Source: Emcibacter sp. (GTDB taxonomy: Bacteria > Pseudomonadota > Alphaproteobacteria > Sphingomonadales > Emcibacteraceae). From it: a stretch of 40,166 bases of DNA. Every line of letters begins with the position of its first letter. Within the stretch, counting starts at the first letter, position 1. The DNA is taken from positions 1 through 40,166 of the forward strand of contig JAJFIP010000252.1 in assembly GCA_021774875.1 (NCBI GenBank). Reading direction: 5' to 3'. Under the pieces are notes generated by a model. That model had not been told where the DNA came from, ran no database searches, and saw nothing but the letters and a program-made list of their open reading frames with translations. Of the stretch, positions 3,152-10,603 are shown one piece after another. A program made the position numbers and the translations under genes.

Positions 3152-5701
3152 TTAATCCAGAGACCGTTCAATTTCCTCGACCTCGTAACATTCAATGATG
3201 TCCGCTTTTTTCAGGTCATTATAGGAGGCAAAGTTCATGCCGCACTCAACACCGGAAGCGACCTCTTCCACATCGTCCTTGAAACGGCGGAGCGATCCAA
3301 GATCACCTTCAAAGATCACCACATCATCCCTGAGCAGTCGCGCATTGGCCCCTTTACGCATAACGCCATCCAGCACCAGACAACCCGCTGCCTTACCTGT
3401 TTTCCCGGCAGAGAAAATATCGAGGATTTCCGCAGAACCCAGAATTGTTTCGCGTAATTCCGGTGCCAGCTTGCCGGACATCACCGCCCTGATGTCATCC
3501 ACAAGATCATAAATCACCGAATAATACCGAATTTCCACGCCTTCCTGACGGGCAAGTTCGGCAGCCTTGTGGCTGGCCCTGACATTAAAGCCCAATATGG
3601 GCGCACCCGAAGCTACCGCAAGGGTCACATCGGATTCTGAAATTCCGCCCACCGCTGTATGCAGTATTTTTGCCTGCACTTCTTCCGTATTCATGGCCTC
3701 CAGCGCACCTGTGATGGCTTCGGAGGAGCCTTGCACATCTGCTTTGATCACCAGGGGTACGATTTCCGCCTGCTTGGTGCTGAGTTTTTCAAACATGGCC
3801 TCGAGTGTTGCTTTCGGGGCGGCTTCTTTTTCCAGCCGTTCCCGGTTTTTACGGAACTCGGACACTTCGCGGGCTTTTGCCTCCGTATCAACCACAATAA
3901 AGCTGTCACCGGATATGGGCATTCCATTCAGGCCCAGAACAGCCACCGGCACAGAAGGTTCGGCTTTTTTCACATTTTTGCCTCGGTCATTGAACATGGC
4001 GCGGACACGGCCCCATTCGTTGCCACAGACAAAAATATCGCCGATTTTCAGGGTACCGCGTTGAACCAAAATTGTCGCTACCGTTCCCTGCCCTTTATCA
4101 AGGCGGGATTCCACCACAAGACCTTCTGCATTGCGGTTTTTATTGACTTTCAGATCGAGCAATTCTGCCTGAAGCTGTATGGCCTCTGCTAATTTGTCCA
4201 GATTGGTGCCATTCAATGCAGATACTTCCACATCCAGAACTTCACCACCCATAGTTTCGACAAAAACCTCATTCTGCAGCAGATCCTGTCGAACCTTGTC
4301 AGGATTGGCCCCTGCCTTGTCAATTTTGTTGATCGCCACAATAATTGGTACTTCTGCGGCCTTGGCATGGCTGATCGCTTCAATGGTCTGGGGCATGATG
4401 CTGTCATCAGCTGCCACCACCAGAATAACAATATCCGTTGACTTAGCCCCACGGGACCGCATGGCCGAAAATGCGGCATGGCCCGGGGTATCCAGAAAAG
4501 TCACCTTGTCGCCATTTGCCATGCGAACCTGATAAGACCCGATATGCTGGGTTATGCCCCCGGCTTCCCCGGTAACCAAAGATGACTTGCGAAAAGCATC
4601 AAGGATAGAGGTTTTGCCGTGATCCACATGGCCCATCACCGTCACCACAGGCGCACGTAAGGTCATGTCTGTTTCCTGGTCTTCGGGACCGGAAAGATCA
4701 ACTTCCACATCTGCGGCACTGATCCGCCGCACCTTATGACCAAATTCCTCAACAATCAGTTCGGCTGTATCCTGATCTATTTCCTGATTTGCTGCGGCCA
4801 TAACATCCATTTTCATGAGCGCGCGTATCACATCAACTGTTTTCTCTGTCATCCTGCTGGCCAGTTCTGCCACGGTGATCATGTCAGGAATAATAACTTC
4901 ACGGAAAAGTTTTTGCTGCGGGCTTTGACCACCTTTCCGCTTTTCCTTTGCCCGGGCGCGTTTCAATGCGGCAAAGCTGCGTTGACGTTCCTGCGCACCA
5001 CCTGACAAGGCTTGGGTAACTGTCAGACGACCCGTCCGACGTATTGGCTCACCCCGACCACGGGATGGTTTTGCATTCGAGCGTTTTTCTTCTGTAGTCT
5101 TTTCTGGCTGCACATGTTTTTTAGCGACGGGGGCAGGTTTGTTTTTTGATTTTTCCGCTGCCTGTTTTTCTTCCTGATCCGCCTTGGCCTTTAGCTCGGC
5201 TTCTATTTTTTTCTTAATCTCCATGTCGGCCTGGAATTTAGCCTCATCGGTCGCAGTTTTTTTCGCATTCTCTGCATTGCGGTCTGCTTTCTCTTTATCA
5301 GATTCAGACCTGGAGGCTTTCTCTACTGCCTTTTTCTTTGCAGCTTCTGCCTCTTGGCTTGCGCGTTTTTCAGCTTCTACTTTCGCCAATTCCAGCGCAT
5401 GGGCGCGGGCCTTCATTTCACTTTCCGTCAGTTGGCGACCAGATGATGCTGTTGACTTTTTCTCAGCTGAAGGTGAAGACAATATTTTCTTTTTCACAGC
5501 CGGAGCAGCAGGCGCCGGTGCACTAGGTGTTCCAGCGGGTTTTTCCCCCGGTTTCAGCATCAGTTTTTTCTTGCGCTGAACGACCACACCACCTGACGCC
5601 CGCATAGCAGCTGGGCTCGCAGTCGAAGGTTTCAACTGTAGCGTTTTTCTGCCAGACCCGGAAACCGACAATGGTTTTTTTGTGTCCTTTTCGTCACTCA
5701 T
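3152..5701 (-). CDS. infB: Translation initiation factor IF-2
   Basis: IF-2 is the GTPase that places initiator tRNA on the ribosome. The 849 residues fall in three parts. The N-terminus carries the alphaproteobacterial RKTLQLK motif, then a long charged Ala/Lys/Glu-rich linker from about 90 to 220. An IF2_N segment follows near 265-315. The G domain has GHVDHGKT at about 356-363, DTPGH at about 403-407 and NKID at about 458-461, followed by the C-terminal beta-barrels and tRNA-binding domain. The ATG at 5701 is the natural start. Upstream is the YlxR-L7Ae gene and downstream is rbfA, 33 bases away. Confidence 0.98.
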
Positions 5702-5750: not shown

Positions 5751-6440
5751 CTATCGCATAACGACACCTTCATACCGGGAAACCTCATCCAAAAAGCTTT
5801 CCGTCACTCCACCAGACAATAATGCCACATGTACGGCATTTGACAAACCCAGCGTTTGTCCCAACTCATCGCGGGTGAACATATCAATCACCGGCAATTT
5901 TTCAAGTACATTCCCCAGACCCGAGCATATTTTATTACGCCCACCCTCTGCGGCGTCTTTTGCTGTAACCAGCACCCGGCATTTGTTCGTCTTTAATACC
6001 GCCCGCGCCTTTTCAAACCCTGATACCAATCTTCCGGCCCGGTTTGCCAGACCCAGATAATTAAGGCATCTTTGCCGAAGCAACTGCACTACAATGTCCG
6101 GCAGATTATCATCCACCATAACCTGTAATTTTTTTATCCTGCCGCCTTCCTGGCCATCTTCCTGATTTCCGGTCGTCCCCCTATCACCAGTCATTGGACC
6201 TGAGGAGGCCAGAACCTTATGTCCAAAACGAACAAATATATTTTTCTTCATGGCACTTTTCAGCATCTTGCCTTCTGCCAGAACCCAGCCACCGCGTCCC
6301 GGCAATTTTGCTGCCACATCCGGGATTACATTACCCTCGGGGTCCAAAACAAACCGGATCAGCTTCTGGGTCGCATATGACTCCCCTGTTACCAGACATT
6401 TTCTTTCCCTGTTTTTCCTGGCCATGTTTTTTTTGGCCAT
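5751..6440 (-). CDS. YlxR (DUF448) plus L7Ae-like RNA-binding protein
   Basis: This is a two-domain RNA-binding protein found between nusA and infB in alphaproteobacteria. The YlxR domain starts at RERKCLVTGESYA and contains LPGRGGWVLAEG. The C-terminal half, from about LGLANRAGRLVSGFEKA to VAEGG-like AKDAAEGGRNK, resembles the L7Ae/L30e fold. YlxR homologues are reported to act as RNase P modulators or nucleoid factors; the role here is unproven. The start is unclear. An in-frame GTG at 6485 would give 244 residues, but it overlaps the only strong Shine-Dalgarno (AAGGAG). The ATG at 6440, giving 229 residues, is preferred and may be reached by re-initiation after a short upstream ORF. Confidence 0.88.
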   Translation of the reverse strand: MAKKNMARKNRERKCLVTGESYATQKLIRFVLDPEGNVIPDVAAKLPGRGGWVLAEGKMLKSAMKKNIFVRFGHKVLASSGPMTGDRGTTGNQEDGQEGGRIKKLQVMVDDNLPDIVVQLLRQRCLNYLGLANRAGRLVSGFEKARAVLKTNKCRVLVTAKDAAEGGRNKICSGLGNVLEKLPVIDMFTRDELGQTLGLSNAVHVALLSGGVTESFLDEVSRYEGVVMR

Positions 6441-6445
6441 GCTTT

Positions 6446-6481
6446 TTATTGGGCGAATATTCTTAGGCACCGGGATTCCAT
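6446..6481 (-). other. Possible 11-codon leader ORF between nusA and ylxR
   Basis: An ATG at 6481 stands three bases after a strong GGAG. Its frame encodes MESRCLRIFAQ and stops with TAA at 6446. The next ylxR-frame ATG (6440) is five bases further on. The best ribosome site in this junction therefore points at this frame and not at ylxR. It may be a translational-coupling leader or simply chance; there is no other evidence for a peptide. Confidence 0.3.
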
Positions 6482-6494
6482 TCACTCCTTAATA

Positions 6495-8069
6495 TTATTC
6501 CGTTTCCGGCTGTTCTTCTTCAGCGACTTCCTCTGTAGTCTCTTCTGTCTCTTCATCATCAAACCAGTGGGCGCGGGCTGCCATAATAATATCATTGGCC
6601 TGGTCATCACTCAGTCCGGTCTCCCGCAAGATCCCATCTTCCGTGCTGGTCAGTTCATCGGCTGATAAATCACCAAGGTCATCCAATGTCTTGATTCCTG
6701 CCTCCCCTAAAAGCACCATCATTGGCGCAGTCAGGCCCGAAATTGCTGCGATCTCATCAGATACACCCAGTTCAAGCCGGCTTTTTTCGGATTGAACCGC
6801 CTGCCGTTCCAGTGACTCCCGCGCTCGATTTTGCAACTCTGCCACCAGATCAGCATCAAAACCCTCGATTCCGGCAAATTCTTCTGGCGCAACATAAGCC
6901 ACCTCTTCCATATTACGGAAGCCTTCGGCTACCAGCAACAGGGCCAGTGTCTCATCCACATCCAGCTGATCAACAAACAACTCGGTGCGGACTTTATATT
7001 CTGCCTGACGTTTTTCCGATTCTGCGGCTTCGGTCATGATGTCCACCTGCCACTCACTCAGCTGGGAAGCCAGGCGGACATTCTGTCCGCGTCGGCCAAT
7101 GGCGAGGCTCAGTTGGTCTTCAGGCACAACCACATCAATACGTTTTCTGTCTTCATCCAGCACCACTTTGGACACTTCTGCCGGGGCGAGGGCACTGATG
7201 ATGAGAGTTGCCGGGTCCGCAGACCATTGAATGATGTCGATTTTTTCACCCGCCAGCTCATTAACCACTGCCTGTACTCTGCTGCCACGCATACCGACAC
7301 AGGCACCAACCGGATCGATGGAGCTGTCAGCACTGCTCACCGCAATCTTCGCCCGGCTACCCGGATCACGGGCAACACCAACAATCTCGATAATGCCGTC
7401 ATAGATTTCCGGTACTTCCTGGGTGAAAAGCTTGGCCATAAAATCCGGATGAGACCGGGACAGAAAGATTTGTGGTCCTCTTATTTCCCGGCGCACATCT
7501 GCTATATAAGCCCGAATCCGGTCGCCGTTACGCATATGTTCGCGTGGTATCATCTGGTCCCTGCGGATAATGGCCTCGGCCTGTCCCACATCAATGATCA
7601 CATTGCCATATTCGACCCGTTTGACTACACCATTGATGATCTCGCCAACCCGGTCCTGATATTCGTCAAACTGGCGCTGACGTTCCGCGTCACGTACTTT
7701 CTGCACAATGACCTGCTTTGCGGCCTGTGCGGCAACCCGGCCAAAATCAATCGGTGGCAATTCGTCGGCCAAAAGGTCTCCTATTTCAGCATCTTTCTTG
7801 AATTTCCCGGCTTCCTTCAGGGTCAGTTCGGTCGCATGATTTTCCACATGTTCCACAACTTCCAGAACCCGATAGAGTTTGATATCACCGGTTTTTCGTT
7901 CGATATGGGCCTTGATCTCATTCTCCGCACCATAACGGGATCGGGCCGCTTTCTGGATGGCTTCTTCCAAAGCCTCCAGAACAATTTCCTTGTCGATATT
8001 TTTTTCCCGTGCGACCGCATCAGCAATTTGCAGTAATTCAATCCTATTCGCACTAACTGCCGTAGTCAT
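6495..8069 (-). CDS. nusA: Transcription termination/antitermination factor NusA
   Basis: NusA binds RNA polymerase and nascent RNA and modulates pausing, termination and rRNA antitermination. The 524-residue protein has the N-terminal polymerase-binding domain (about 1-125), an S1 domain (about 140-200, GEIINGVVKRVEYGNVIIDV), and KH1 (about 230-285, GACVGMRGSRVQAVVNEL). KH2 follows (about 300-350, IGRRGQNVRLASQL). The C-terminal region has two helix-hairpin-helix-like repeats and ends in a strongly acidic tail, as in proteobacterial NusA. It starts three bases after rimP, so translation is probably coupled. An operon leader hairpin upstream of rimP may serve NusA autoregulation. Confidence 0.98.
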   Translation of the reverse strand: MTTAVSANRIELLQIADAVAREKNIDKEIVLEALEEAIQKAARSRYGAENEIKAHIERKTGDIKLYRVLEVVEHVENHATELTLKEAGKFKKDAEIGDLLADELPPIDFGRVAAQAAKQVIVQKVRDAERQRQFDEYQDRVGEIINGVVKRVEYGNVIIDVGQAEAIIRRDQMIPREHMRNGDRIRAYIADVRREIRGPQIFLSRSHPDFMAKLFTQEVPEIYDGIIEIVGVARDPGSRAKIAVSSADSSIDPVGACVGMRGSRVQAVVNELAGEKIDIIQWSADPATLIISALAPAEVSKVVLDEDRKRIDVVVPEDQLSLAIGRRGQNVRLASQLSEWQVDIMTEAAESEKRQAEYKVRTELFVDQLDVDETLALLLVAEGFRNMEEVAYVAPEEFAGIEGFDADLVAELQNRARESLERQAVQSEKSRLELGVSDEIAAISGLTAPMMVLLGEAGIKTLDDLGDLSADELTSTEDGILRETGLSDDQANDIIMAARAHWFDDEETEETTEEVAEEEQPETE

Positions 8070-8072
8070 ACC

Positions 8073-8582
8073 TTAAACTCCAATTGATGCTTGTTTAAGC
8101 AATTCATCTGTCAAAATAAGTTTTGAACGGTTTATATTATTGAAATCCATTTCAAAAACTTCGCCATCCACTTCAATCTTCACCAAATCTTCCGTGATGC
8201 CCAGTAATTTACCCCGGTAGCGACGTCGGCCATCATCAGGAACCGACAATTCAATCCGGGCGTCATAGCCGGCATAATTTCTAAAATCCTTGCGCCGGGT
8301 CAATGGGCGATCAATGCCCGGTGTGCTGACCTCCAGCACATATTCTTCCGAGATCGGATCCTCAATATCCATAATCACAGAAATCTCGCGACTGAGACGC
8401 GCACAATCTTCAACCAGCATCGTACCATCGGGTCTTTCCGCCATGATTTGCAAAGTTACCGCTCCGCCCCGAGCTGAATTCTGCAAGGCAATGCGTATAA
8501 TTTCATAGCCCATTGCCTCCGCAACAGGGTCAATGATCTCATGCAATATGTCTAATCGTGATGACACAATATTTCCGTTCAA
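8073..8582 (-). CDS. rimP: Ribosome maturation factor RimP
   Basis: RimP assists 30S subunit assembly. The family segments are IIDPVAEAMGYEIIRIAL, DCARLSREISVIMDIEDPI and YVLEVSTPGIDRPLTRRKDF. The C-terminal domain is SH3-like. An open frame reaches a GTG at 8627, but that codon lies inside an intrinsic-terminator hairpin, so this longer form is unlikely. A TTG at 8582 with GGTG five bases upstream, or a GTG at 8567 with GGA upstream, gives a normal N-terminus of about 165-170 residues. TTG is used here, with the GTG nearly as likely. It is the first gene of the nusA-infB transcript. Confidence 0.93.
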   Translation of the reverse strand: MNGNIVSSRLDILHEIIDPVAEAMGYEIIRIALQNSARGGAVTLQIMAERPDGTMLVEDCARLSREISVIMDIEDPISEEYVLEVSTPGIDRPLTRRKDFRNYAGYDARIELSVPDDGRRRYRGKLLGITEDLVKIEVDGEVFEMDFNNINRSKLILTDELLKQASIGV

Positions 8583-8593
8583 GCTTTCACCAA

Positions 8594-8625
8594 TAAAAAA
8601 GCAGGCCAGTGAAACACTTGCCCGC
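8594..8625 (-). terminator. Intrinsic terminator or attenuator between trmB and rimP
   Basis: On the minus strand an 11-base stem (GCGGGCAAGTG / CACTGGCCTGC) has one G-U pair and one mismatch. It closes a four-base loop and is followed directly by six T residues. It lies 86 bases after the trmB stop and about a dozen bases before the rimP start. It could end the metK-trmB transcript. It also sits downstream of a good promoter, so it could act as an attenuator in the rimP-nusA leader. Confidence 0.75.
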
Positions 8626-8660
8626 ACTTATTATTTATTTCAAGTGATTCGGTTGCTATA

Positions 8661-8688
8661 TATATAGTCGAAACTTCAGGAACTTCAA
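8661..8688 (-). promoter_or_regulatory. Candidate promoter of the rimP-nusA-infB operon
   Basis: On the minus strand TTGAAG (8688-8683) is followed after 16 bases by TATATA (8666-8661), which lies within a run of TA repeats. This predicts a start near 8653 and a leader of about 70 bases containing the terminator-like hairpin. No experiment supports it; the assignment rests on consensus match and position. Confidence 0.5.
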
Positions 8689-8710
8689 GCGAATAGTAGC
8701 ACAGGCGGGA

Positions 8711-9421
8711 CTATGGATGGCGGGGACGGCGGATAAAGCGCAGGTAACTGCTTTTGCGCCCCTGTTCCATTGACTTGATTTCATAGCGACTGGCTGGCCA
8801 GTCATCGGGTCGGCTGCGCCAGTCTTCCGGGCTGTCAGATGCCCAGATGAAGTCTGGATTATCCATCATATGGGCCATAATCCAGCGGCAATATTCCATA
8901 TGGTCGGTCCCTATGCGAAGCTCGGCACCATCTTTTAAAATGCGGGCCAGAACCACTATATTCCCCGGCCCCACTATGCGACGCTTATGGTGGCGGGATT
9001 TGGGCCAGGGATCGGGAAATAATATAAATGCCCGGCCAATTGAACTATCCGGCAGGCTGTCCATCAGCAGTCTGGCATCATCAGTAAAAATCCTGACATT
9101 GGCTAGATTACTCTGATCCACAAGGTCAACAAGACCTGACACCCCATTAAGGAAGGGCTCACAACCGATCATGCCAATATCAGGGTGGGATTGCGCCTGT
9201 GCCGCCAGATGCTCGCCCTTGCCAAATCCAATCTCAAACCAGAAGTCTTTCCGGGCCATATTAAAATAGCATTGTGGGGCAGTGGCTGATTTCTGTTCGG
9301 GCAGGATTATTTCAATTTCCGGCAACCATTTGTCAAGACGACCCTGACGGGCAGCGGAAAGTGCTGGGCCCTGCCTGCGGCCATAAACCCGACTGCCTTT
9401 AATATTTTCAAGATTACGCAT
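8711..9421 (-). CDS. trmB: tRNA (guanine-N7-)-methyltransferase
   Basis: TrmB uses S-adenosylmethionine to methylate G46 of tRNA. The 236-residue protein has the SAM-binding EIGFGKG at 63-69. The family-specific PDPWPKSRHHKRR segment is at 136-148. The C-terminal substrate loop includes RSRPDDWPASRYE. The start ATG at 9421 has no clear ribosome site and lies 18 bases after the metK stop. It is therefore likely coupled to metK, the enzyme making its methyl donor. Confidence 0.96.
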   Translation of the reverse strand: MRNLENIKGSRVYGRRQGPALSAARQGRLDKWLPEIEIILPEQKSATAPQCYFNMARKDFWFEIGFGKGEHLAAQAQSHPDIGMIGCEPFLNGVSGLVDLVDQSNLANVRIFTDDARLLMDSLPDSSIGRAFILFPDPWPKSRHHKRRIVGPGNIVVLARILKDGAELRIGTDHMEYCRWIMAHMMDNPDFIWASDSPEDWRSRPDDWPASRYEIKSMEQGRKSSYLRFIRRPRHP

Positions 9422-9439: not shown

Positions 9440-10603
9440 CTAGAAGTGGCCTTTCAAGTTCTCAACCAGATCGAGCTTTTCCCATGAAAAGCCGCCATCT
9501 GCCTCAGGCGTGCGACCAAAATGTCCATAGGCTGCTGTCCGCTCATAAATAGGCCGATTCAAATTCAGATGTTCCCGGATACCTCGGGGGCTTAAATCCA
9601 TCATTTCAAACAGTGCCTTTTCAAGTCTGGCTGGATCAACTTTACCTGTATTATGGAAATCCACATATAAAGATAGAGGATGAGACACACCGATCGCATA
9701 AGCCAGTTGAATAGTACAGCGGTCCGCCAATCCTGCAGCCACCACATTCTTAGCCAGATAGCGCGAAGCATAGGCTGCTGAGCGATCCACCTTTGTCGGA
9801 TCTTTGCCGGAAAAAGCGCCGCCGCCATGAGGGGCAGCGCCGCCATAGGTATCGACTATGATTTTCCGCCCGGTAAGACCCGCATCGCCGTCCGGGCCAC
9901 CAATGACAAAATTTCCTGTAGGATTGATGTAAAGCTCATCATCAGGGCACATCCAGCCCGACGGCAGACTATTCTCAATATGTTCAAGAACAATTTCCCG
10001 GATTCGTTCCTGAGTGACATCCTGCCCATGTTGAGTCGACACCACAACTGACGTAGCCCTGACCGGCACACCGTCCTCATATTTCAAGGTGACCTGACTT
10101 TTGGAATCAGGTCCTATTTCTGTCACTCCGCCGTGGCGAGCATCGGCCAGCGATTTCAGAATCAGATGAGAATAATGCAGGGGAGCCGGCATATATACGT
10201 CAGTTTCATTGGTGGCATAACCAAACATGATGCCCTGGTCTCCGGCACCTTCGTCCTTATTATCTTTACTGTCCACACCCATGGCTATATCAGCGGACTG
10301 CCCGTGAACATGTATTTCAACTGACATATTATCCCAGTGAAATCCATCCTGCTCATAGCCTATTTTTTTAACTACTCTGCGGGCGGCAGCTTCCATAATA
10401 TCCGCATCAATTGATGCCGGACCCCTGACTTCACCTGCAAGCACCACCCTATTTGTCGTGGTCAAGGTTTCAACCGCTACGCGGGCCTCAGGCTCCGCAG
10501 CCAAAAATAAATCAACGATGGCATCGGAAATACAATCTGAAACTTTGTCTGGATGGCCTTCTGATACTGATTCACTGGTGAATAAATAATTTTTTCTGGA
10601 CAT
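9440..10603 (-). CDS. metK: S-adenosylmethionine synthetase
   Basis: MetK makes S-adenosylmethionine from ATP and methionine. The 387 residues fit the family. Diagnostic segments are [10 protein letters not shown] at 14-23, [12 protein letters not shown] at 119-130 and the phosphate-binding [17 protein letters not shown] from 260. The ATG at 10603 has GGAGAA eight bases upstream. The roughly 150-base leader is very AT-rich and holds several perfect palindromes, but nothing in it matches a SAM riboswitch that I know. The upstream neighbour is an unrelated sugar transferase, separated by a terminator. Confidence 0.98.

Follow-up and report, generated by a model that had tools for sequence, protein, structure and literature searches.

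The DNA analysed here, called the window throughout, is a stretch of 40,166 nt from an alphaproteobacterium of the family Emcibacteraceae, whose minus strand carries, in this order, metK, trmB, rimP, nusA, a ylxR-like frame and infB. Pfam domains identify metK (9440–10603, S-AdoMet synthetase domains), trmB (8711–9421, Methyltransf_4), rimP (8073–8567, RimP_N and the RimP C-terminal domain) and nusA (6495–8069, NusA_N, S1 and KH). The open reading frame at 5751–6485, part of the rimP-nusA operon, is presumably ylxR-like, a name given by position, and the one at 3152–5701 we take to be infB from its IF-2 sequence features and the order of the operon. The leader examined here lies immediately 5′ of rimP-nusA-infB, with trmB as its upstream neighbour. 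Between a sugar-transferase-like frame and metK there is another terminator-like hairpin of 12 pairs with an ATTTTT tail (10783–10756, minus strand), so metK-trmB is probably a separate unit.

The leader, also on the minus strand, starts with a putative promoter composed of a -35 element, CTTGAA (8684–8689), and a -10 element, CTATAT (8662–8667, the start of CTATATATATAG); read as TTGAAG (8688–8683) and TATATA (8666–8661), the two hexamers are separated by a spacer of 16 nt. A conserved box, CCGAATCA (8645–8652), lies at or adjoining the expected transcription start. It is followed by the terminator hairpin (8601–8625), which reads GCGGGC-a-AGTG-TTT-CACT-g-GCCTGC and is predicted to form 10 pairs, one of them G.U, interrupted by an A.G mismatch (-13.4 kcal/mol), and by a U-run (TTTTTT, 8595–8600), interrupted within TTTTTTATT. 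From the U-run to the GTG start codon of rimP (8567) there are 27 nt, within the 4–130 nt described for rimP-leader terminators, and these contain a possible ribosome binding site, CGGAAA (8572–8577), with GGAAA-like sequences in many relatives. The 25-nt hairpin by itself is more stable than expected (z -3.2; 0 of 200 shuffles equally good), although within a 61-nt stretch it is only moderately unusual (z -1.9; 6/200 shuffles). A simple promoter and terminator scan of the window listed neither the leader promoter nor the leader terminator, because its rules require the -10 form of E. coli and an unbroken stem.

The first-pass annotation had proposed that the longest rimP frame, of 184 aa from GTG 8627, does not begin at the true start, and the comparison of relatives agrees. 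This GTG sits at the foot of the hairpin and is in frame with, and open to, rimP in only two of 30 family leaders, whereas an ATG or GTG at the position of GTG 8567 is common to them; the 184-aa frame was thus rejected.

Gene rimP was detected in 58 of the 60 genomes searched, the source of the window included, and the corresponding loci (L001–L058) were read; the leaders of the 30 loci assigned to the family (L001–L030) were excised and aligned. All 30 leaders preserve TTG, AGT (as TTG(A/C)AGT at the -35 element), TATATAT and nearly every position of the hairpin, and at least five T are found in the eight bases that follow it in 29 of them. Likewise, CCGAATCA (8652–8645 in the window) is invariant in 30/30, at about the expected transcription start. 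The spacer between the -35 and -10 elements is of 16 nt in 29 leaders and of 15 nt in one, and the hairpin begins 60–69 nt from the -35 element; the distance from the trmB stop codon to the -35 element ranges from 10 to 73 nt, leaving aside L004, whose contig lacks trmB, and L029, with a misread stop. For the leader, identity to L001 was 0.89 in members of the genus and 0.87 beyond it, compared to 0.77 and 0.71 for the coding DNA of rimP and 0.79 and 0.70 for that of trmB (two trmB values are missing). Since this non-coding DNA has changed less than either flanking gene, the alignment indicates that the leader sequence itself is under selection in the family.

The order of promoter, hairpin and rimP start put forward in the first-pass annotation, with every element in its place in the window, is maintained in these 30 leaders, and the hairpin that it expected in close relatives is there: the same leader precedes rimP in 30 of the 31 family genomes in which this gene was found, with G018 as the diverged exception. 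As judged from this comparison, which decides the matter, the arrangement in front of rimP is not due to chance. The stem pairs are invariant save for one outer pair in two of the 30 leaders, and there are no double changes among the ten pairs, so covariation within the family does not prove the structure. The G.U pair is kept in 30/30 leaders, and the A.G mismatch in all but L021 (A.A) and L016 and L017 (a single bulge). A covariance model built from the family leaders gave one strong match per genome, of 97–126 bits and situated at rimP, in 30 of the 32 family genomes, whereas the next best match anywhere in these genomes reached 31 bits; the model was trained with the same 30 leaders, and the informative part is only the absence of second copies. 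A search of the window's own genome likewise gave one match. The two exceptions are G001, 62% complete and with no rimP found, and G018, scoring 18.8 bits at rimP.

In an alphaproteobacterial register, the window promoter reads CTTGAA-16-CTATAT and agrees with CTTGAC-n-CTATAT at 11 of 12 positions; CTTGAC is the -35 consensus, and was used for scoring in place of CTTAGAC. The latter is how the -35 element is printed for Sinorhizobium, followed after n17 by the -10 element CTATAT (PMC2245857). Over the 75 nt that precede the hairpin, the best match is of at least 9/12 in 107 of 126 leaders, which are related sequences and hence not 126 independent tests, compared to 7.4% of shuffles. The promoter proposed between trmB and the hairpin is therefore supported, as far as sequence allows, by a -35/-10 pair conserved in place.

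The gene order in the window also allows for a hairpin that is solely the 3′ terminator of metK-trmB, with rimP-nusA being served by another promoter or by transcripts leaking through. In the window and most relatives trmB ends 10–73 nt before the promoter, and the 21 nt that separate them in the window contain no other terminator; nothing else lies between trmB and the hairpin, so metK-trmB transcripts must meet it. This reading is nevertheless very unlikely, because a conserved promoter separates trmB from the hairpin, because the 27 nt from the U-run to the rimP start are too few for another promoter and because the hairpin does not travel with trmB. A GGGC-type hairpin was found in 52 of the 58 loci of relatives, with at least five T in the next eight bases in 47, and in a set of 80 named alphaproteobacterial loci the hairpin was present in 75 and the U-run in 65; the two sets overlap in some genomes, and some hairpins were placed by hand patterns. 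Gene trmB lies apart from rimP in G034 (2.7 kb), G037 (about 0.58 Mb) and G044 (different contigs, the weakest case, since the assembly is broken), and the three genomes retain the hairpin at rimP (L052, weak; L050; L037) and have no GGGC-type hairpin behind trmB. The upstream neighbour is a long divergent frame in 16 of the 18 listed Rhizobium-type loci, the four tested all being MFS transporters (MFS_3), and the hairpin is still found about 90–170 nt before rimP, where it would act only on transcripts begun just upstream of rimP, the neighbour being divergent. By its persistence at rimP when trmB is elsewhere or the neighbour diverges, the hairpin is a 5′ leader element of rimP. The suggestion in the first-pass annotation that it may be the end of metK-trmB is thus retained in part: it probably also ends that unit in the window, but this is not the whole story, because it follows rimP when the genes part. 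In L066 and L067 (genomes of the G036 family), one TGA was counted within the trmB match.

That the element is a leader of rimP still allows for mechanisms other than plain attenuation. In a terminator/antiterminator switch, the first ca. 20 nt of the transcript would pair with the purines of the terminator base, and a signal would select the fold. This was examined with 126 leaders, omitting 12 of 138 (Sphingomonadaceae and a few others) in which no hairpin could be recognised. Over 44 clusters, 5′ and 3′ parts from the same leader paired at -3.7 to -4.1 kcal/mol, versus -2.7 to -3.2 kcal/mol for swapped parts (equalled in 10 and 1 of 10000 permutations); the contrast held when 29 clusters were used (31 and 6 of 10000) and was reached by shuffled 5′ parts in 0 of 60 cases. 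It was also apparent separately in Kordiimonadaceae (63/10000), judged by this swap test since the alignment shifts the 3′ arm by 1–2 bases between rows, and in Rhizobiales (298/10000). Across the class, the hairpin arms vary while their pairing is kept, as read by eye. In Rhizobiales leaders (e.g., L128 and L148) we observed a 5′ stem, TCTTGATC...GATGAAGA, that is replaced by TCTTGGTC...GAACAAGA in leaders of the Brucella type; its 3′ arm is shared with the terminator base. In the family of the window, however, own parts fit no better than swapped ones (9328/10000), the CACTTG box is altered in five of 30 members (L022, L023, L026, L028 and L029) while CAAGTG is unaltered, and the bases shared by both helices are so few that these might coexist. 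An antiterminator by pairing of CACTTG with CAAGTG, or CACTT with AAGTG, attractive by eye, was rejected on the swap test; for this reason the 5′ stem has no part in the explanation for the window and is a lead for other lineages, and a switch appears improbable. A wider proposal has somewhat better prospects but is still doubtful: alphaproteobacterial rimP-leaders might be true switches with a lineage-specific, coevolving 5′ box, in which the Kordiimonadaceae helices would work without a U-run and control nusA beyond plain intrinsic termination, with the Emcibacteraceae having lost the switch. Most of the 26 Kordiimonadaceae leaders read keep the hairpin and the 5′ stem without the U-run, which also favours a hairpin acting mainly on the fate of the RNA, as an RNase III site, by protecting mRNA ends or as a coupling pause, with termination as a secondary role. 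Although the E. coli operon is described as having RNase III processing sites (PMC6511841), the U-run is kept in the family of the window and in most other lineages, and there is little chance that RNA fate is the main role.

The lineages that depart from the common form do so in different ways. Most leaders of L172–L199 (the G035 family, Kordiimonadaceae according to its named loci) have a GCCATAACGCA- or GCGATAACC-like stretch in the place of the U-run, and L152–L171 and L054–L058 (the G036 family, Sphingomonadaceae by inference) lack the GTGGGC hairpin and show a recurrent GGCTGGCGCC...GGGGCCGGC-like stem without a U-run. The loss of the U-run or of the whole hairpin in several lineages, including these two families, implies that termination at a U-tract is not universal at rimP.

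The preferred reading, a rimP leader with its own promoter and a plain terminator, has precedents. The gene that most frequently has a premature terminator in front of it is rimP, and the family designated rimP-leader is described as a GGGc(...)gCCC terminator with no visible antiterminator and NusA as the best candidate regulator (Naville and Gautheret, 2010; PMC2965389). The window leader shares with it the position before rimP-nusA-infB, a short terminator with conserved arms, G-rich on the 5′ side and C-rich on the 3′ side, and the U-run. It differs in that the stem is GGGC...GCCU, one G.U replacing a G-C pair, with relatives from other families having GGGC...GCCC; in the extension of the hairpin by AGTG/CACT and a fixed mismatch; and in the family-specific CCGAATCA box. 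As in the published family, there is no visible antiterminator in the Emcibacteraceae, from which other lineages differ. The main text of that publication names Firmicutes and Gammaproteobacteria, without the word Alphaproteobacteria (PMC2965389). Among the literature matches listed none deals with an alphaproteobacterial rimP leader, and the main text of the S. meliloti and Zymomonas papers examined does not name nusA (nor, in some, rimP, yhbC or infB). In Rfam, RF01770 (rimP) is a leader-type family for the same gene that detects E. coli; its gathering score was not reached in the window, nor was there an RF01770 match in the window's own genome. Searches of the window and of 17 loci from relatives gave no Rfam match at gathering level, and only chance-level matches were obtained for 8450–8850 with E up to 10; the best of these, RsaOG, AbsR25 and L20 leader, were discarded, as they fit any hairpin followed by a U-run.

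In E. coli K-12, rimP is preceded by GGGCTTTAGGCCC and then a T-run. The primary paper on the nusA leader of B. subtilis is said to be that of Mondal (2016). The metY-rimP-nusA leader of E. coli (t1, t2) resembles that of the window in its GGGC...GCCC terminator and U-run right before rimP, but has tandem terminators and an upstream tRNA gene, and NusA of this species is reported to regulate the operon that encodes it (PMC6511841). In B. subtilis, nusA is controlled through intrinsic termination in its 5′ leader, which NusA stimulates; this was demonstrated by experiment, whereas for the window we infer it (2025 review, PMC12288461). In S. agalactiae, from another phylum and likened to the window by description rather than by sequence, transcription of the rimP-nusA leader terminates 31 nt after the start, and NusA feedback was proposed (PMC4448216).

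The promoter, the hairpin and the U-run have been kept as a set and, on the evidence of the loci compared, belong to rimP. We consider it highly probable that they constitute the alphaproteobacterial form of the rimP-leader, with a promoter, a weak terminator, read-through into rimP-nusA-infB and, presumably, feedback by NusA. RNA polymerase would start at the sigma-70-type promoter, about 30 nt ahead of the weak intrinsic terminator, and a share of the transcripts would end after about 55–60 nt, with only read-through reaching the operon. By analogy with the leaders above, abundant NusA would strengthen termination and lower expression of its own operon, a negative feedback without an antiterminator; metK-trmB transcripts would meet the same hairpin and probably end there as well. 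In B. subtilis, NusA has its greatest influence at terminators whose hairpin is weak or whose U-run is interrupted (PMC12288461), and the G.U pair, the mismatch and the broken U-run would fit a terminator kept weak for NusA. The window leader thus looks like a local version of a known self-limiting switch, a kind of element already described. A rimP-leader attenuator with its own promoter would then run through the Alphaproteobacteria, overlooked by genome annotation because the current Rfam model misses this form, and its natural variants, with a weak stem, a lost U-run or an added 5′ stem, could serve for tests of NusA feedback beyond E. coli and B. subtilis.
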